From Lindgomyces ingoldianus (taxonomy: Eukaryota; Ascomycota; Dothideomycetes; Pleosporales; Lindgomycetaceae): DNA of 64,000 nucleotides. Made by a program: the position numbers and the translations under genes. The notes beneath the pieces are model-generated. The model was not told the DNA's origin. It saw only the letters and a program-made list of their open reading frames with translations, and did not search any database. How positions within the stretch are numbered: position 1 is the first letter of the stretch; each line of letters starts with the position of its first letter. The DNA is taken from positions 1,314,796-1,378,795 of the forward strand of contig NW_022985170.1 in the NCBI RefSeq assembly GCF_010093535.1, in the 5' to 3' direction. This document shows, in pieces, positions 25,976-61,936 of this stretch.

Positions 25976-26594
25976 AGAAAGGGGGCGCTATGAGTACACG
26001 CTAGAGGTGGCAATTTTCGAGGTGTAACGAGGTCGGCACGGTCAACCACGTGGCCTTCTCTCGCTCATAGAGGTTTAGGCTAGGCTAGAGACAACCGCTA
26101 GTGCTAGTGCTTACCCTAGCATTACCTATATATATATTATACTATGCGAGAATACTTAGCTTAAGTATTCTCGTGCGTACCATTTGGTACAGTGGGGAAA
26201 GTCGTATAGTATCGGCTTGGCAGGCGGGGCGCCTACCTCATTACACGAGGCAGCGCTGCCTCTATAGAACGCTGCATAAAAGCGTTGTAACAACAGCGTT
26301 TCTTTAGTGGTTAGAACTAATCAGATAGAGCAACTAGAAGTAGGCATGTTTATGTACAAAGGCTTCTAGGCGCATAAGTCTACCTTAGGTTTTAATAGGA
26401 GGGCGCATACAAGTTACAACGTGGTAACAGACCTTAATCATTACACGCTAACTTTTATATAGGCTGTAATGTAATTTAGTAGTTAATTAATAAGAAAGGT
26501 ATAAAGTAGTGTTATATTTTAACATTTCTTAATTAAGCCTTTTAAATACCTTAGGCAGAGTGGCATTTGCGCGTAGTACGGTGGTGCGCATTAT
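25976..26594. other. Gene-free spacer with two perfect palindromes
   Basis: This stretch has more balanced composition than the rest of the block. It contains a 27-nt hairpin at 26147-26173 (arms CGAGAATACTTA and TAAGTATTCTCG, loop GCT) and a 16-bp palindrome GAGGCAGCGCTGCCTC at 26247-26262. The 68-codon open frame at 26101-26307 has no recognisable similarity. The last five bases (ATTAT) are the target duplication of element D1. Confidence 0.5.
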
Positions 26595-26857
26595 TGTAAC
26601 GGCACAGGCAAGACAATGGGTCCGAATGCGGTAGGAATCCACTCAGAGGCATATGGGAGTGCGTGGGGACTTAATGACCTAGGAATCTCATTAACACCTA
26701 TAGGCCTTGTACAAAGGATATTAGAAAACTACTAAGCTAGCTACAGGAGAGAGGTGCGACTAAATACATAAGGGAATAGGGGTAACAGCAAGGGTTAGGG
26801 CTAATACAGGGGCCTTCTAGGTTATCTAAAATAGAACAATTTATAAGGATTGTTACA
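26595..26857 (-). repeat. 3' LTR of D1
   Basis: 263 bp on the minus strand; plus-strand reading TGTAACGGCACAGG to GGATTGTTACA. It lacks the GGTCGGGG-rich insert present in the other LTR. Confidence 0.88.
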
Positions 26858-27650
26858 CTACCCCCCCTCTGTAGACTCATAGTCTTTATTAGTAGGTAGA
26901 AGTATTACTGTTATGTCCTCTGCCTTCTTAAAAACTAAAAACTAGTCTAATTTAGCTAGGTGTCCTTACTAAGTATTCCTTCACACTACTAGCAGTGTCC
27001 TCTAAACTAAACGCTATGCGTGCGCGCCCGCTCTAATATTAATCTATGTAGATGTCTAGCTAATTGTTTTTTACTATCTGTGCAGTTATTAATCTTAGGC
27101 GTAGGTTTTAGTAAGGTGACATTTAGGTATTATTAGGGGTGCCTAAAAGGTCTCTTGCTATTAGGGTAGCAAGGGTGATTTAAGGCATTATTAGAGGTAA
27201 TTTAGTAGTTAGCAGGGGTTAACTAGCAGTCTTAGCTAGATTAGCTGCTAGGGATTAACTCTAAATTAGGTAGGTCTAGCTTTAGGTTCTATAGAAGCAG
27301 GTTTAGCTGTTAACAGAGTAGTAGTTAGTAGTTAAAAGTTAGGCATTAGCAGTTGTCTCTAATCTTAATAAGTTATTAGTAGTCTCTAAGTTTCTACCTT
27401 AGCACACTCTACACAACTTTTCTAAAGGCAATTCTAATTATAGGGGATAAGAAGTTTTAAACTTAAAGGCTTTAGTTAATAAAAGGTCTCTAGTATTCTA
27501 TCTATAAACTAAATAGTTTAACAGAACAGTGTGTAAGTATTATAACCTAAACTAAATTAAACATGTCTTAAGCTTAGATATAGTTAAACAAATAATTAGT
27601 GTAATATTATAATAAGGCTGTTATTAGCAAAAGTAAGTTTTTTAATATAA

Positions 27651-27930
27651 TGTAACAGTATAGGCAAGACAATAAGTCTAAATGCAGTAGAAATCTACTT
27701 AGAGGCATATAGAAGTGCGTGGGGACTTAATAACCTAGGAATCTTATTAACACCTATAGGCCTTGTACAAAGGATATTAGAAAACTACTAAGCTAGCTAC
27801 AGGGGAGAGGTGCGACTAAATACATGAGGGAATAGAGGTAACAGCAGGGGTCGGGGCCAGGTCGGGGTCGGGGCCGATACGGGGGCCTTCCGGGCCATCT
27901 GAGATGGAACGATTCATGAGGATTGTTACA
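27651..27930 (-). repeat. 5' LTR of D1, half RIPed and half intact
   Basis: 280 bp. The left part (27651 to about 27840) is depleted of C and G like the rest of the block. The right part contains GGTCGGGG-type repeats and many CpG sites, so the mutated zone stops inside this LTR. Confidence 0.88.
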
Positions 27931-27935
27931 ATTAT

Positions 27936-29348
27936 ACTCACTTTAACAGGAGGTCGTCGCAACATCATAGGGCTGAGGCATGCACATAACACTGCACACG
28001 TTCTAATTAGGCGGCTGATAAGCAGTTGTTAGATGCTAGCTCTTAGATTTAGCCTAAAGAATTACTAAGAAGTTAAGCTTTAATACGTTGCAAGGTGAAG
28101 CACGCAACAGCTGTTTATAATGTATTAAGCATACAAAATATTGCAGGGCAAACTACAAGAAATAATTATTGCTTGTTAGTAAAACAGAAGATGAAAATAA
28201 GTATTAGTCTATAACTATGCAATCTTCCTAGTAATAGTAGAAGATGAAAATTGTCTGACTTGCCTTGTCCTCTAACAAGGGTATTTTTCTTAGCACAGTT
28301 GGTGGCTTTACAGGAGCGCTGTACTTGGCTAGCATGCATAAAAGATTATATAGGTTACGTATTATCTAGAGAAGAAAGGGCTAAAGCATTACTCTTGATA
28401 CAAAAGACGCGTGATTCACGAAAAGAGATTACAGACTGCTCTTAGCGTCAGGATCACCAATAGGTGCAAGGGAAGTCAGGGGGGCGGACGATACGCAGAG
28501 TTTGCGTTATAGCGAGAGTAAATTACAAACGAAACAAAATAGCAAAACCTCTTCCTTGACCACATAGCCACAGCCAGGTGCATTAATGAAAAGAGTGTAG
28601 GATCGCAACAGCCAGCGGTAGTGCTGGGGCCAGCGTCACTGTGTCTGCAACTATGAGCAAGCCTAGTGAGAGGAGGACCGTGTTTAAAAATAGGAATAAT
28701 CTTAAAAAATAGTTTTGTAAAACTGTTTTAGAGATTAAACTGCAGCAAAAAAGTTAGCGCAATAGAAAATAAAAAAACAGAAGTTAAAAAAACATTACCT
28801 GAAAAGAACAGACTAGAAAAGTATTATCCCGATGCCGTCAAGGTGCCAAGATTGTCTAAACTAGGAAATCAAAACTTGCTTGATCGAAGCGGGTGCATGG
28901 CGACACCGCTTTTGTGGCTCAGACAGTACGGAAAATGCATGATCAAGCAGGCGCTCCTAGCACTGCCGTCTCGCAAACGATATGCCAAAAGCTCCGAGAC
29001 ATGTAATTTCGCTTACAGAAAAACAGACATGTCCTGAAATCATGGTGAGCCAATTAGAAGTTAGTTACTAGATTCCTAGCGCCGGCATCCCCGTTGCTAG
29101 CCCGTGCAATACCGACGCTTACTCAGATGTTTTGTTGCCCTTCTTCAGGGAGCGTGGGTAGAATGTCAAAAGAACGGGCGCTAAAACCTACTAAACGTCG
29201 CTTTGCCCCACATTTTCGCAGGTAAAACTCGAGCCAAAGGTAGGTTAAGAGACCGAGAGGGGTTGCCATTCTGTGCATGGTTTTTTGCAAAATATTTTGT
29301 AGTATATAATCAAACAACTGGGAAAAATGAACATCAATCAAGACATAC
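27936..29348. other. Gene-free transition from the AT-rich block
   Basis: Composition shifts from AT-rich to balanced across this 1.4 kb. Only short open frames without recognisable similarity are present (for example 28251-28445 and 28843-29037). I see no gene, tRNA or repeat boundary here. Confidence 0.5.
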
Positions 29349-29505
29349 GGTGGTATGGTCTAGTGGTATGACGTCGCGTTGTGGCCGCGCCAGCCTGGGG
29401 TGAGTTAATCTCCATTCCAACCTGGCCCACTCAAACGAGTGGATTAAGAGCTACAAAACAAGAGTACTGACTGACAATTGTCCAGTTCGATTCCCAGTAC
29501 CGCCA
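29349..29505 (+). tRNA. tRNA-His (GTG) split in the T arm by an 86-nt intron-like insertion
   Basis: Exon 1 is 29349-29399 and exon 2 is 29486-29505. Joined, they give a 71-nt tRNA with 7-bp acceptor stem (GGTGGTA/TACCGCC), D arm with A box TGGTCTAGTGG, anticodon loop TTGTGGC (anticodon GTG, His), a 4-nt variable loop, a perfect T stem CTGGG/CCCAG with loop TTCGATT, and discriminator A. There is one U-C mismatch at 27-43. The insertion (29400-29485) falls between G53 and T54, not at the usual 37/38. It starts GTGAGT, has CTGAC at 29471-29475 and ends CAG, i.e. spliceosomal donor, branch and acceptor. The AG of its end keeps the B box nearly intact (AGTTCGATTCC). It also holds a hairpin at 29427-29442. 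Without removal the T stem cannot form. If it is not removed, this is a tRNA pseudogene. Confidence 0.85.
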
Positions 29506-29510
29506 AATTC

Positions 29511-29517
29511 TTTTTTT
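29511..29517 (+). terminator. RNA polymerase III terminator
   Basis: A run of seven T residues starts six bases after the tRNA-His 3' end. Confidence 0.85.
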
Positions 29518-29966
29518 GGGGAAATTTTTTTGGCGAGGCGAAGTGAAACGGCTTGGCATGCATCATGGGTGTGCGAACAAACACGTTACGGTATGACAAG
29601 AAGAAATTGGATTGTGAAATGTTTTTGGCTTAGATTGAAAGTGCTGCCGCTGAGTTAGTCGAAAGAGGCATTACTTCCAAGTCTTTTGTGCTTATATGGA
29701 GGAAATGAGGAAATGATGAAGGGGAACTGCACCTCCTTATAGAGGATGTTCTTAGTGAGGATAGGGATTGTATCCCTTATCATCTATGAACCCAAAACCC
29801 CAAATCCTAGGCATGTAGCTATTGTGTCATTCCTCTTTGTAGGTAGTCCTCTTCACGAGTGCAGAACCTCTATCCCTAAAATCCACAACTAAAGGCCAAA
29901 GCGGCCACCATAGGTGATGTATCATAATACCAGACCCAGCAGCACCATTCCTTCCCCATTCCAACC
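29518..29966. other. Intergenic, nothing recognised
   Basis: This stretch lies between the tRNA gene and the 3' end of the RING-CH gene. No open frame or repeat is recognised. Confidence 0.5.
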
Positions 29967-31583
29967 CTATGGCCTCACAATTTTCTTCTTACTTCGATCA
30001 TAATCCTCTACTCTCCGCTTCCGATGATTCTGCGCCATCTTCCACCGCACATATAGCATCACTACATCCTTAACCCCCACAAATAGACAGCCCCCCAAGA
30101 TGCTCCGTCCCCACCTCGCCTGCAGAAATCCCGTCACTTTACCGTCTGCGGGCTTTGTAACCCATGACTTTGGCAGTGCGTGTTTCAACACCTCACCGAC
30201 TGCAGCCGCAATAGAGGGGAAGATGAGAGCCCCGAGGATGGTGTCTGCCAGGGAGGTCGTGCTAAATTGCATGTTGCGTTCGCGGCGGATGCGGTTTCTT
30301 CTGCCGGGGACATTTGGTGCGGGGGCAGCATCCTGTACGTCTACGTCTTGGGGAGGGGCGTGGAGGGGTGGTGCAGGGCCGCGGGCGATGGGTACTGGGG
30401 GGTTTTCCTCGGCAGCATTGTTGTCGGCCGCACCGCCGTTGTTCCAGTCACCGAAGAGGTCGAAGTCAACTTCGAGTTCTACAGCTTCGATGACGGCGTC
30501 GTCGTCGCCGTCCTCGAGCACTTCTTCGATTTGGTCTCCCGCGTTGTCGTTGTCAGCGCCGTTGTTTCCATCTGTGTCACCAGCACGTGGTTGAATTTCC
30601 TTGAGCCATCGTTGTTCTTTTGGTAGCCAGACACGTTCGTAGTATGCATTGTAGACACCTCGGATGTAAGGCAGTGCGGCAATGGTGAAGGCAGCGCTCG
30701 GCGGCCATTGGAACGGCATCATCTCGTCCTGGGGTCTGCCCGAGCTCGCGAAGAATATCAGCGGCAAGAATGGGAGAAAGCTATCAGCCAGTGTGGTCCG
30801 CGAGGCTATCAAAACAGTTGGAATCAGTGGAAGCCCCAGGTCCAGTCTCCAATTCAACCGTAGGTGGTCCATCGCCCGTGCCACGATCGACTGATGCATC
30901 GTTGGGGATTCGTAAATAGGCATTAGAATCTGCGCTCCATCTTCTATGCCAAAGACTTCATAGACAGCATGTGTGCCCAACAGGGTAGCCGTGCTGTAGA
31001 CCGCTGACCCCACTACGATAAAGAACCCGGGCAATAGCATCATCCCCGTGAACCTCTCCACCGTCCGCACAAGATCCACGACTATGCTCCGTGGCCGCAC
31101 AACCTTGATCTCAGCCTTGCACTGCGGACACAGTATCTTGCCTCTCCCACCACCAGCCCGCCGCCGGGAGCTCGGGGCCTCCATATCGGCGATCCAGTCG
31201 AGCAGGCACTTTTCGTGCGCAACGAGGACACAGGGACAGGGGCTGCGCCATTCTGAGGAGGTGGGTTCGTCTTCGGTTTCGTCATTGAAACATATCCAGC
31301 ATTTGCGAGGCTCGTCGTCCGGCTGCGGAGCCGCCGTTAATTCTTTCTGCGACTGTGAATGCGGCTGTGAATGCGACTGTGACTGTGACTGTTCAACGGG
31401 TCTCTGCGCTTGTGGCGGGTGCGGGCTATTCAGGAGCAGTGTCTGCGAGTCTTCAGACGTCGCGGAATAGGCTTCGCTGTCGGTGCGACCCAGCTGCGAT
31501 TGCTCATGCTGGGACGCCGGCTCGGCAGCTTCGCGGGGAGGAGACCTGCGCTGCGAGGCGGGCAGGGGAGGGACGGAGGTCAT
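29967..31583 (-). CDS. RING-CH (MARCH-type) membrane E3 ubiquitin ligase
   Basis: This single-exon gene encodes 538 residues and starts at an ATG. A Ser/Gln-rich low-complexity N-terminus (about 1-90) precedes a C4HC3 RING-CH domain with Cys95, Cys98, Cys116, Cys118, His123, Cys126, Cys152 and Cys155, the spacing of RING-variant domains that bind an E2 enzyme. Hydrophobic segments follow at about 180-203, 250-280, 440-465 and 495-515, separated by an acidic Asn/Asp-rich loop, so the protein should be anchored in an internal membrane with the RING in the cytosol. The family transfers ubiquitin to membrane proteins; yeast Doa10/Ssm4 is the best-known RING-CH member, but this protein is far shorter and not its ortholog. 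Substrate unknown. It is transcribed towards the tRNA gene. Function from the domain is firm; membrane topology is inferred. Confidence 0.9.
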   Translation of the reverse strand: MTSVPPLPASQRRSPPREAAEPASQHEQSQLGRTDSEAYSATSEDSQTLLLNSPHPPQAQRPVEQSQSQSHSQPHSQSQKELTAAPQPDDEPRKCWICFNDETEDEPTSSEWRSPCPCVLVAHEKCLLDWIADMEAPSSRRRAGGGRGKILCPQCKAEIKVVRPRSIVVDLVRTVERFTGMMLLPGFFIVVGSAVYSTATLLGTHAVYEVFGIEDGAQILMPIYESPTMHQSIVARAMDHLRLNWRLDLGLPLIPTVLIASRTTLADSFLPFLPLIFFASSGRPQDEMMPFQWPPSAAFTIAALPYIRGVYNAYYERVWLPKEQRWLKEIQPRAGDTDGNNGADNDNAGDQIEEVLEDGDDDAVIEAVELEVDFDLFGDWNNGGAADNNAAEENPPVPIARGPAPPLHAPPQDVDVQDAAPAPNVPGRRNRIRRERNMQFSTTSLADTILGALIFPSIAAAVGEVLKHALPKSWVTKPADGKVTGFLQARWGRSILGGCLFVGVKDVVMLYVRWKMAQNHRKRRVEDYDRSKKKIVRP

Positions 31584-57383: not shown

Positions 57384-60300
57384 ATGTCACGAGCAGCCAA
57401 ATTAGCAGAGCTTCGAGCTTTGCGTGCTGCAGGCAAGACGCGCCTTTCCACTTACCAAGTCGTCGAAGAAGAGCAATTGTACGATGAAGTCGACGAAGAG
57501 GGCTACAAAAAGGTCGTCCGAGGCCGTCTAGACCAAGATGACTTCATTGTAGACGACAATGGCGAGGGCTATGCCGACGATGGCAGAGAGGAGTGGGACG
57601 GTGACCACCCCGGCTATCGCTACGCAGCGACAGACAGTGAGGAGGAAGAAAACCGCCCCGCCAAAGGCAATGCTGGTATGCGAACTCACCAAGGTGATGC
57701 ATCATTTGAGAGGATTGTCCTGACGCGTAATAGGCAAAAGGAAACGTGAGGAAGACAAAGAGAGGCAAGAGAAGATCAACAACGGCATCAGCAAGTACTT
57801 CAGCGCGAAGGCTGCCACAAAGGCTGTGAAGCCTAAGGTGTGTCCGTATTTCCAGTGCACTCGAGACCCATGTCAAATAACACCATGCGTAGCCTGTTGC
57901 AACCGCTGCGGATGATGCCTTTATGGCCGACTTGCTCTGCAAAGTGGACTCGAACATTCCCCGCCGTTCTGCACCTCTCATGCGACCTATGAAGACTGAA
58001 TCTCGAAGAAAGACACGCGTCTTGTCCCCCACTGTGTCTGAGAACAGGGCCTATGCCGTCACGAAGAAGACTGGTGACTCGGACGGCTACATGCCAGACA
58101 CCCCTCCAGCAGAAAATAACGATGACGGCTATCTTCCCACTATTGATGACGATATGCCAATGAGCGATCTCCCCCTTCAATCATCACCGGTTGCCAAAGC
58201 CGTAGAACGGAAATCTCAACCTCCTATCAAGGCCGAAGAGGAAGAGGAAGACCTCATGGAGGTCGCTGAGGTGGTTGGTCATGCTGGTGTGGCTACACCC
58301 AGCATTAACATGGCTGGACGCCGGCCTGTGCCCAAGATCAAGAAGTCAGACTACCCGACACCCGCCAGTTCTTCACCAGCTGGGCCTTCAACCGCGCCTG
58401 CTGTTGATGCATCCTCCTGGAATGATGTTACCGACAGACTCAACGTCATGAGTAGCCCCGCGCCGACTACTACAAGCGTCGGAAAACTGAGCCCACAGTC
58501 AGTGCTTGAAGACGATGGTAGCGTGCGGATGTTCTGGATTGACTATACCGAGATCAATGGTAGCTTGTGTCTGTTTGGAAAAGTGATGGACAAGACCACT
58601 GGTAACTACGCCAGCTGCTTCCTCAAAGTGGATAACATTCTTCGAAAGCTTTACTTCCTCCCTCGCGAATACCGCCAGAGGCGAGGTCGAGACACAGAGG
58701 AGGAGGTCGAGATGAGTGATATCTCCGAGGAAGTCGATACTATCATGACCAAGCACCGAGTGGCTATGTACAAGATCAAACCTTGCACGAGGAAATATGC
58801 ATTTGAGCTTCCAGGCATTCCCAAGGAGGCCGATTACCTGAAACTTCTTTACGGGTACGAGAAAACGCCTCTCTCCACCGATCTGACTGGTGAGACATTC
58901 TCTCACGTATTCGGCGCAAACACCTCATTGTTCGAGCAATTTGTACTCTGGAAGAACATCATGGGTCCATGCTGGCTCAAGATCGATGATGCAAATTTCA
59001 ACGCCGTGAACAACGCGTCATGGTGCAAGCTCGAGCTTCAAGTCAGCAAGCCTGGGCTCATCTCAACGCTCGGAAACTCGGACAACTTGGAAGCTCCACC
59101 GCTCACTCTCATGAGCATCTCACTTCGCACCACATTCAACGCCAAAGACAATAAGCAAGAGATTCTCGTGGCGAGCGCTATGGTCTATGATAACTTCTCG
59201 CTCACCGATACTACTCCCGCAGACAAGCTTCCCTGTAAGAGTTTTACTATCATGCGTCCAAATGGAGATGCCTTTCCAACTGGATTCAAAACCGATTCCG
59301 AAAAACAGAAAGGCAGCGTCATGCTCCGCAAAACCGAAAAAGAGCTCCTCAGTCTCTTCATGGCTATGTTCCAGCGTCACGACCCTGATGTACTGGTCGG
59401 CCATCGCCTCGACGACGTAGACTATAGTGTCTTACTGAACCGCATGCGTGAGCGCAAGACGCCAGGCTGGCACCGTATTGGGCGACTCAGGAGAAGTGAG
59501 TGGCCCAAGAACATGGGCAAGGGTGGAGGCAGCTTCATTGTTGAGAGGCAATTAGCTGCAGGACGCTTATTGTGTGATTTGGCCAACGATCTCGGAAAGT
59601 CACTCATGACAAAATGTCAATCATGGAGCCTGGAGGAAATGTGCCAACTTGTCCTGAACAAGCCCCGACAGGAATTGGATAACGAAGCAGCGTTAAAGAC
59701 ATGGGCTTCTACAAAAGACGGTCTGATGAACTACGTCAAGCACTGCCAAGCCGACGCATACTTCATCGCCGCCATCTCCATCAAGGTCCAGATGCTCCCT
59801 CTGACCAAGGTTCTCACCAATCTCGCTGGAAACTCATGGGCGCGTACACTCAGCGGAACGCGAGCAGAACGCAATGAGTACATTCTTCTGCACGAATTCC
59901 ACAAGAACAAATACATCTGTCCCGACAAGTCGTGGGGTAAAGGCAAGCCGAAAGCTGAGGAAGAAACCCCTGAGGGCGAAGAAGGCGTTGACGCCAAGAA
60001 AAAGGATAAGTTCAAGGGAGGACTTGTTTTCGAGCCCGAGAAAGGCTTGTATGACAAGTTCATCCTAGTTATGGACTTCAATAGTTTGTATCCTAGCATC
60101 ATCCAGGAGTTCAATATCTGCTTTACGACAGTAGAGAGATCTGATCTCGTAAGTTCTCCTATGCAATTCCAAGCTCCTATATCAGCAGACCTAATAAATA
60201 TACAGTCTGAAGACGACGAGAGAGTCCCCGAAGTCCCCTTGAACCAAGACCAAGGCATTCTCCCACGCCTAATTGCAACACTCGTCTCCCGCCGTCGAGA

Positions 60301-61936
60301 AGTAAAAAAACTCATGAAGTCCCCCACCGCCACATCGGACCAACTCGCCACATGGGACATCAAACAGCTCGCTCTCAAACTCACCGCAAACTCCATGTAC
60401 GGCTGTCTTGGCTACACGCGCTCACGTTTCTACGCCCGTCCGCTCGCCATGTTAACAACATACAAAGGCCGCGAGATCCTACGCCGTACAAAAGACATGG
60501 CAGAGGCGAAAATGCTGCGCGTTATCTACGGCGACACTGATTCCGTCATGATCAACACCAACGTCGACAACATTCAAGATGCGCTCAAACTTGGTAACGA
60601 GTTTAAGCGCGAGGTCAACGATAGCTACAAGCTCCTCGAAATCGATATCGACAACGTCTTCCGCCGGATCCTACTGCACGCGAAGAAGAAATACGCTGCC
60701 ATCAATATGGTCCCTATGGACGGCAAGTACGTGGAGAAACTCGAAGTCAAGGGTCTGGACATGCGACGTCGAGAATACTGCGCACTTTCTAAAGAAACAT
60801 CCACCGAACTCTTGAACTTCCTCCTCAGCGGCGAAGACCCCGAAACCGTAGTCGAAAAAATTCACGACCATTTACGCACCTTGACGCAGAAGATGCGCTC
60901 ATATGAAGTCCCCGTTCGCAAATACACAATCTTCACACAACTCGGCAAAAACCCCAACGAATACCCCAATGCGAACTCCATGCCCAGCGTGCAAGTCGCA
61001 CTGCGTCTCTTGGCCAAGGGCAAGCACGTCAAAGCCAAAGACGTCATGTCGTTCATCATCACAGGTGCTTCATCCGGATCCGCGGAGACTGCTGCAAAAA
61101 ATGCGTTCCCCGTCGACGAAGTGCTAAACCCCTCTTCCGACCTCAAACCAGACATCGACTACTACTTGCACAAGCAAATTCTGCCCCCGGTCGAACGTCT
61201 CTGCGCGCCGATCTCGGGCACCAACATCACGATGCTGGCGGCGTGTCTAGGGCTCGATACAACAAAGTACCGTATCTCGTCGGCCGCGCACACAGGCAAT
61301 GCACAGGATACGGAGATCCAGCCCCTAGAATCTCAAATCCCAGATGAAGTCAGGTTTAAGGATTGCATGCCGCTGTTTCTTCGGTGTCGGAATTGTTGTA
61401 CCACCTTTCCGTTCACCGGCCTCTCGACCCCAACTTCATCTCTGTCCACTATCACTCACTCCGGCATCCAATGCCCGTCCACTGGCTGCGCCACCATCCT
61501 CCCAACCCTCTCAGTCGTCGCACAACTTGAATCGACAATCCGCCAACACCTCGCTCGCTACTACGCCGGGTGGCTCATATGCGACGACCCGCAATGCGGG
61601 ACCCGCACGCGCCAGATCTCCGTCTACGGCCATCGGTGTCTCGGGCCCAAGGGCCTTGCGAAAGACTGTCTGGGGAAGATGGGCTGGGAAGTTAAGGAGA
61701 AGGATATTTGGAATCAGTTGTTGTATCTTAAGTCGCTTTTTGATGTTGATAGGGTAGGGAAGGCAGGAGGTAGCAGGGTAGAAGAAGAAGCAAGGGAGAA
61801 GGCGAAAGTCCTTGCGGAGGTAAACCGCGAGAGGTTTGGGACCGTCAGGGGGGTTGTTGAGAGGTGGCTTGAGAGGAATGGGAGGCAGTGGGTGCAGATG
61901 GATACTTTGTTTGCGTTTGCGATGAAGCAGCAATAG
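57384..61936 (+). CDS. POL1: DNA polymerase alpha catalytic subunit
   Basis: The exons are 57384-57675, 57734-57837, 57893-60148 and 60206-61936, giving 1,460 residues, the normal length. Introns of 58, 55 and 57 nt have GTATGC, GTGTGT and GTAAGT donors and end in AG; the third has no stop and keeps frame, but it inserts residues not expected after TTVERSDL. The N-terminus ([20 protein letters not shown]) is the conserved Pol alpha amino end. The family B polymerase motifs are [10 protein letters not shown] (Asp860), NSMYG (Asn946) and YGDTDS (Asp994, Asp996). Two Cys clusters near the C-terminus (FLRCRNCC with CPSTGC, and CDDPQCG with HRCLG) are the zinc/B-subunit-binding modules. It extends RNA primers made by primase at origins and on the lagging strand. 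Promoter sites suggest G1/S control. Confidence 0.97.

Follow-up and report, generated by a model that had tools for sequence, protein, structure and literature searches.

The stretch of DNA analysed here (the window; 64,000 nucleotides) spans bases 1314796-1378795 of a 1664003-base contig, within a 68.4-Mb assembly of 99 contigs from the freshwater fungus Lindgomyces ingoldianus (Dothideomycetes, Pleosporales, Lindgomycetaceae). The protein encoded by its POL1 gene (57923-61936) matches a L. ingoldianus protein at 98%, with the remaining 2% being mostly a single coding intron (60149-60205) read through by plain translation. The window DNA being that of L. ingoldianus, a member of the Pleosporales, the tRNA-His(GTG) gene that it carries is therefore nuclear. 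This gene lies on the plus strand in two exons. The 5' exon (29349-29399; tRNA positions 1-53) provides the 5' strand of the acceptor stem, the D arm, the anticodon arm, the variable loop, and the 5' strand of the T stem, while the 3' exon (29486-29505) provides the T loop, the 3' strands of the T and acceptor stems, and A73. Between them, at 53|54, lies an 86-nt insert of spliceosomal type (29400-29485) that opens with GTGAGT (29400-29405) and closes with CAG (29483-29485); ahead of the latter, a branch-point-like TACTGACTGAC (29465-29475), read directly, contains two overlapping CTGAC motifs, with A29470 or A29474 as the candidate branch nucleotide. The coordinates and letters given in the initial annotation are correct, and a terminator-like run of seven T follows the gene (29511-29517, plus strand). 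The annotation had also remarked that the acceptor AG preserves the B box almost intact; the B box core GTTCGATTC (29485-29493) takes its first G from the last nucleotide of the insert. An A box (TGGTCTAGTGG; 29356-29366) and a TATA-like element 46 bp upstream of the gene (29303-29310), both on the same strand, complete the set of Pol III signals.

Excision of exactly 29400-29485 had been claimed to yield a near-perfect tRNA-His cloverleaf, and the count of base pairs bears this out: the product, in which the exons rejoin as CTGGG|TTCGATT, has perfect acceptor (7/7) and T (5/5) stems, four of five anticodon-stem pairs, and a 3-bp D stem, with the flaw being a U-C at pair 27-43. Minimum-energy folding does not bring the spliced tRNA-His RNAs into a clean cloverleaf; stem counts and covariation were therefore relied upon instead. 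A point against splicing of the window gene is that its 5' splice site is nearly all paired in the predicted fold of the precursor.

The insert hides the gene from ARAGORN, which listed no tRNA anywhere in the window and called tRNA-His(gtg) once the insert was left out. An Rfam scan of the whole window likewise returned no tRNA at cut-off; with the Rfam tRNA model, the gene scored 26.5 bits in a scan of 28000-31000 (cut-off 29) and 33.3 bits in the whole-genome search, the latter match spanning 29349-29505. As a control, excisions shifted by 1-20 nt were submitted to ARAGORN for this gene and the three further interrupted genes introduced below, and a tRNA was still called in 27, 16, 14, and 30 of 40 cases, respectively (27 being the window gene). 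Such tolerance was too great for the control to be useful, and it was therefore replaced by a strict count of stems and B box. Among 43 excisions of the right length in the window gene, two give a 7/7 acceptor stem, a 5/5 T stem, and an intact B box; both yield the identical RNA, and one of the two is GT..AG. The restoration of T stem and B box in this count places the split at 53/54 and not at 37/38, as had been proposed.

A census of tRNA genes in the assembly, in which 63 of 3779 first-look candidates were scored, gave 34 Rfam matches above cut-off, and a looser repeat of the family search added three below it. The census is partial, with several isotypes (e.g., Cys, Phe, Tyr, Ile, Pro) absent among the 34. 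A script parsed 31 of these loci; the rest were read by eye, as was one parsed locus (L023) for a second time. Four of the 34 carry an insert that we read as lying outside 37/38, i.e., the window gene and three others. L033 (C12:177581-177699, minus strand) is the sole other tRNA-His(GTG) found in the 68.4-Mb assembly by this partial census; its 48-nt insert at 53|54 runs from GTAGGT to GGCTAACGTTCCTAAG, with CTAAC before the AG. L035 (C34:427985-428118, minus strand), by our reading a tRNA-Thr(TGT), has both a 13-nt intron at 37/38 and a 49-nt insert at 53|54 (GTAAGT to GACTAACTTCCTTTGAG), likewise with CTAAC before the AG. L023 (C33:390075-390203) is a tRNA-Ser(GCT) whose similar insert measures 48 nt (GTAAGA to TACTAATTAGTGTAG). 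ARAGORN missed three of these four genes in their unspliced form. The tRNAscan-SE 2.0 paper describes the detection of non-canonical introns for that program's archaeal search; together, these points suggest that tRNA finders can miss interrupted genes of this kind in fungi.

Placement at 53|54 in L033 and L035 was judged by the T stem that excision restores; the Rfam alignment of unspliced L033 sets the insert before the T stem and not inside it, with a posterior of approximately 0.7. For each of the three T-arm genes, only one product fits the cloverleaf. It is reached by two (window gene), three (L033), or two (L035) equivalent placements, of which a single one per gene is GT..AG with a branch motif. 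ARAGORN named spliced L035 a Lys(ttt), a call that we rejected since the stem TCGCA/TGCGA, taken with the 37/38 intron, reads Thr(TGT); anticodon calls by the program and by us also disagree for L014, L021, and L024. For L023, structure does not fix the insert, as 35 excisions give 27 products. Its most likely position is the variable arm, by analogy with another tRNA-Ser gene (L019). With unspliced L023, ARAGORN proposed a 36-nt intron in the anticodon loop, in agreement with our first script parser; this candidate leaves three of five anticodon-stem pairs versus five of five with the variable-arm reading and was set aside. An uninterrupted sibling, the tRNA-Ser(GCT) gene L015, makes a built-in control pair with L023.

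Whether the window gene is alive bears on the first alternative to be weighed, namely that a spliceosomal intron, or an intron-like piece, sits in a dead tRNA-His copy while another tRNA-His serves the cell. According to a review of tRNA introns (PMC4090602), D- and T-arm insertions in eukaryotic tRNA genes mostly affect a single member of a large synonymous set and are supposed to mark pseudogenes. The locus moreover lies near an AT-rich block resembling the product of repeat-induced point mutation (RIP) and near a broken U2 copy, and the partial nature of the census leaves room for a further gene. Against this, the window gene keeps its acceptor and T stems fully paired, together with both internal boxes (A and B), the TATA-like element, and the T run. 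Furthermore, both tRNA-His genes that were found carry an insert, and with the inserts removed, the two are identical at 47 of 71 positions, and in eight base pairs both partners have changed while still pairing, versus none in which a single partner has changed. Four of these compensating pairs are in the acceptor stem, two in the T stem, one in the anticodon stem, and one in the D stem. The two T-stem changes flank the intron, with one strand on either side.

The search for an uninterrupted tRNA-His speaks to the same alternative. A 27-letter pattern, run across the assembly at up to three mismatches and without length change, found only the window gene, and a 29-letter pattern common to both tRNA-His genes found only those two under the same settings (reversed control, 0). 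With gaps allowed, a pattern modelled on an ordinary tRNA-His whose D loop reads TAGTGG gave three matches, none of them a tRNA by eye, versus six for its reversed control. DNA searches with the two spliced tRNA-His sequences returned only their own exons; since these searches fail to link even the two known genes, a third divergent gene could escape them. The Rfam family search had no uninterrupted tRNA-His among its 34 matches and the three below cut-off (63 of 3779 candidates scored). Thus, an uninterrupted tRNA-His was not detected, which is not to say that none exists, as a divergent copy could be missed by a partial census. The initial annotation had named several intact tRNA-His genes elsewhere as the finding that would speak for a pseudogene; such genes were looked for, and none was detected within this partial census. 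It had also offered two readings: either the transcript is processed at a non-canonical position, perhaps by the spliceosome, or an introner-like element has inserted into a gene that is now dead. The sequence evidence favours the former, given the same junction in a second, divergent tRNA-His and in a tRNA-Thr, the compensating pairs, and the lack of a detected uninterrupted tRNA-His; the latter gained no support, as a DNA search of the assembly with the window gene and its 86-nt insert matched only itself (very common words being skipped). The corresponding search with the interrupted L035 gene also matched only itself (with the same words skipped). Taken together, we consider a dead copy unlikely.

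The inserts themselves carry the marks of spliceosomal introns. All four begin exactly with GTRRG, end exactly with AG, and have CTRAY 3-25 nt before the AG. Single-letter shuffles combined GTRRG, CTRAY, and AG in 0, 0, 1, and 0 of 20,000 trials for the inserts of the window gene, L033, L035, and L023, respectively; the splice signals of the window insert, which had been read from its GTGAGT, CTGAC, and CAG, are beyond chance. At 86, 48, 49, and 48 nt, the inserts fit the lengths of other introns in L. ingoldianus, albeit in a small sample comprising three coding introns of the neighbouring POL1 gene (58, 55, and 57 nt) and three U2 introns (66, 66, and 60 nt). By eye, the POL1 introns come no nearer to consensus than do the inserts.

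A second alternative holds that the inserts are non-canonical tRNA introns whose removal, as in archaea and red algae, falls to the tRNA splicing endonuclease, with tRNA ligase joining the ends. Introns outside 37/38, including in the T arm, do occur in archaea, in the red alga Cyanidioschyzon merolae, and in nucleomorphs; 53/54 is among the archaeal positions listed in PMC4090602, and 55/56 is used in C. merolae, for which a review of permuted tRNAs (PMC3978253) describes T-loop introns with bulge-helix-bulge motifs. There, the introns have motifs of this type and are handled by the tRNA endonuclease, whereas the L. ingoldianus inserts have GT, a branch motif, and AG in four of four cases. 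Canonical introns at 37/38 in the same genome (n = 18, i.e., 17 from script-parsed loci plus that of L035) differ from the inserts in all of these respects, with 0/18 being GT..AG, 0/18 starting with GT, and lengths of 6-27 nt as opposed to 48-86 nt. Nor do the inserts occupy the usual eukaryotic position of 37/38, as three are at 53|54 and that of L023 is, by our reading, in the variable arm. A strict test for the bulge-helix-bulge motif, requiring a 4/4 central helix, found it in 0 of 28 placements across the four inserts; this is a weak test, as only 4 of 17 canonical introns pass it at any of seven offsets (1 of 17 at the called junction). Since 13 of the 17 canonical introns fail as well, failure is not decisive, and the test is therefore no evidence either way; the case rests on signals, lengths, and positions. 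An earlier version of the test, which scored pairings other than the central helix of the motif and was discarded, had returned 4/4 pairs at the called junction in L033 and L035, and at a single offset in L023. Given the splice signals and lengths, removal by the tRNA endonuclease appears highly improbable.

Spliceosomal splicing is usually coupled to Pol II, and protein-coding genes occur in the same window, which would suit a longer Pol II RNA spliced like an mRNA with the tRNA as a by-product or a domain of a non-coding RNA; this is the least probable of the readings considered, as the A box, B box, TATA-like element, and T run match in kind those of uninterrupted tRNA genes. Each of the four interrupted genes combines A and B boxes with a TATAW 41-56 bp upstream and a downstream T run. 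Among the 34 tRNA loci as a whole, and with no shuffled control for any of these counts, 33 have the B box pattern, 31 the A box pattern, 32 a TATAW within 80 bp upstream, and all 34 a run of at least four T within 50 nt. In the three T-arm genes, the B box begins with the G that ends the intron, and the promoter is therefore unbroken by the insertion. Across these lines of evidence, the inserts are very probably short spliceosomal introns of U2 type (GT-AG) in working tRNA genes; in the window, the host is a nuclear tRNA-His gene that would be transcribed by Pol III and cleared of its intron by the spliceosome.

Introns of this sort also appear in small nuclear RNA genes of the same assembly. 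The Rfam U2 family matched six places, four of them above cut-off. The best match (L037) is intronless; the other three (L038, L039, and L040) are located on C12 and C7. L038 has a 66-nt intron after GTGTAGTA (GTGAGT, GGCTAACG, CAG, in this order), and in L039 that site also holds an intron of 66 nt, with a second one of 60 nt elsewhere in the gene. One intron in each of these two genes directly follows GTAGTA, the part of U2 that recognises the branch site. L040, at 47.4 bits (cut-off 46), shows by eye three or more intron-like inserts, including one that is GC..AG, and may be decayed. In all three genes, the intron-like inserts have CTAAC or CTAAT ahead of the AG. From these sequences, at least two and probably three U2 snRNA genes carry such introns. 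The three best U6 copies have none. Places resembling U6 (G000 and L048-L057) number 14 at E up to 1, of which eight are above cut-off; ten copies were read, and by look, three (the best) are intact and intronless while seven are degraded.

The surroundings of the window gene have features of their own. A broken U2 copy at 28597-28787 (minus strand), extending to approximately 28890, scores 34.9 bits (cut-off 46), lacks part of its 5' end, and keeps two intron-like inserts at the sites of those in L039. Relative to L039, its substitutions lean towards C>T and G>A (63 of 168, over an aligned stretch that includes poorly aligned flanks). Positions 1-26000 form an AT-rich block (GC 0.27; TA/AT 1.76; (CA+TG)/(AC+GT) 0.57) with no open reading frames of 100 aa or more; its composition looks as expected of repeat-induced point mutation, and GC reaches approximately 0.5 by 30 kb. 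Beside the block lies a direct repeat of 210 nt at 90% identity (26592-26801 and 27648-27857), with the copies 1056 nt apart.

Spliceosomal introns in structural RNA genes have precedents among fungi. Nuclear rRNA genes of ascomycetes contain them, and a 1993 paper, by its title, reportedly described an mRNA intron in fungal 18S rDNA. These resemble the tRNA inserts in being spliceosomal-type introns in fungal structural RNA genes and differ in that their hosts are many-copy Pol I transcripts, compared to the few-copy tRNA genes considered here. The U2 snRNA gene of Rhodotorula hasegawae has an mRNA-type intron, which parallels the introns in the U2 genes of L. ingoldianus. U2 is, however, a Pol II transcript that acts in the spliceosome, and a tRNA is neither; the R. 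hasegawae host is thus of a different class from that in the window. The U6 snRNA genes of fungi other than fission yeast also have mRNA-type introns. In fission yeast itself, as stated in the literature, the U6 snRNA gene has an mRNA-type intron, i.e., like the window gene, it places a spliceosomal intron in a small fungal Pol III RNA; its host is a component of the spliceosome as opposed to a tRNA, and the three best L. ingoldianus U6 copies are intronless. The 2014 review PMC4090602 supposes non-canonical tRNA introns to be rare in eukaryotes, with nucleomorphs and C. merolae as its named cases; the word "spliceosome" occurs 0 times in its main text. Within the openly licensed literature, we found no paper describing a tRNA gene with a spliceosomal intron, which is weak evidence of absence, as subscription papers fall mostly outside it. 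A spliceosomal intron in a non-coding RNA gene is thus a known kind of arrangement, and the tRNA class of host appears to be new.

Proposed mechanism: Pol III, directed by the TATA-like element upstream and by the A and B boxes within the gene, would transcribe exons and intron together, giving a precursor with the intron inside its T arm. The spliceosome would then recognise the 5' splice site, branch point, and 3' splice site and remove the intron, and only thereafter would the T arm and the tertiary fold of the tRNA-His form. Since proper pairing between the T and D loops would have to await removal of the intron, splicing should precede or accompany end trimming. Spliced RNAs of these genes would be expected to contain the junctions GCCTGGG^TTCGATTCCC and ATCCGAG^TTCGATTCTC. 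As for the site, 53|54 would be tolerated because the acceptor AG gives the B box its starting G, with an intron ending in G placed after G53. One route to such an intron would be reverse splicing into a tRNA that was then copied into DNA. The occurrence of 53|54 in three genes suggests either recurrent gain at a tolerated position or an ancient tRNA-His intron with a single further gain. We infer Pol III transcription, spliceosomal removal, aminoacylation, and an origin by reverse splicing or a similar gain.

Taken more broadly, the gene structures suggest that the spliceosome is probably a required tRNA-processing machine in this fungus, with both tRNA-His, as well as the tRNA-Thr, maturing only after U2-type splicing of Pol III precursors, and with the recurrence of 53|54 reflecting a sieve that lets an intron persist only if its acceptor AG restores the B box. 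The splicing of tRNA and that of mRNA are taught as separate worlds with separate enzymes. With both detected tRNA-His genes interrupted, L. ingoldianus cells may need the mRNA splicing machine for an essential tRNA. If so, translation would depend on the spliceosome at a new step, Pol III tRNA precursors would be able to enter the spliceosomal pathway, and these genes would provide sites at which to study intron gain apart from coding constraint.
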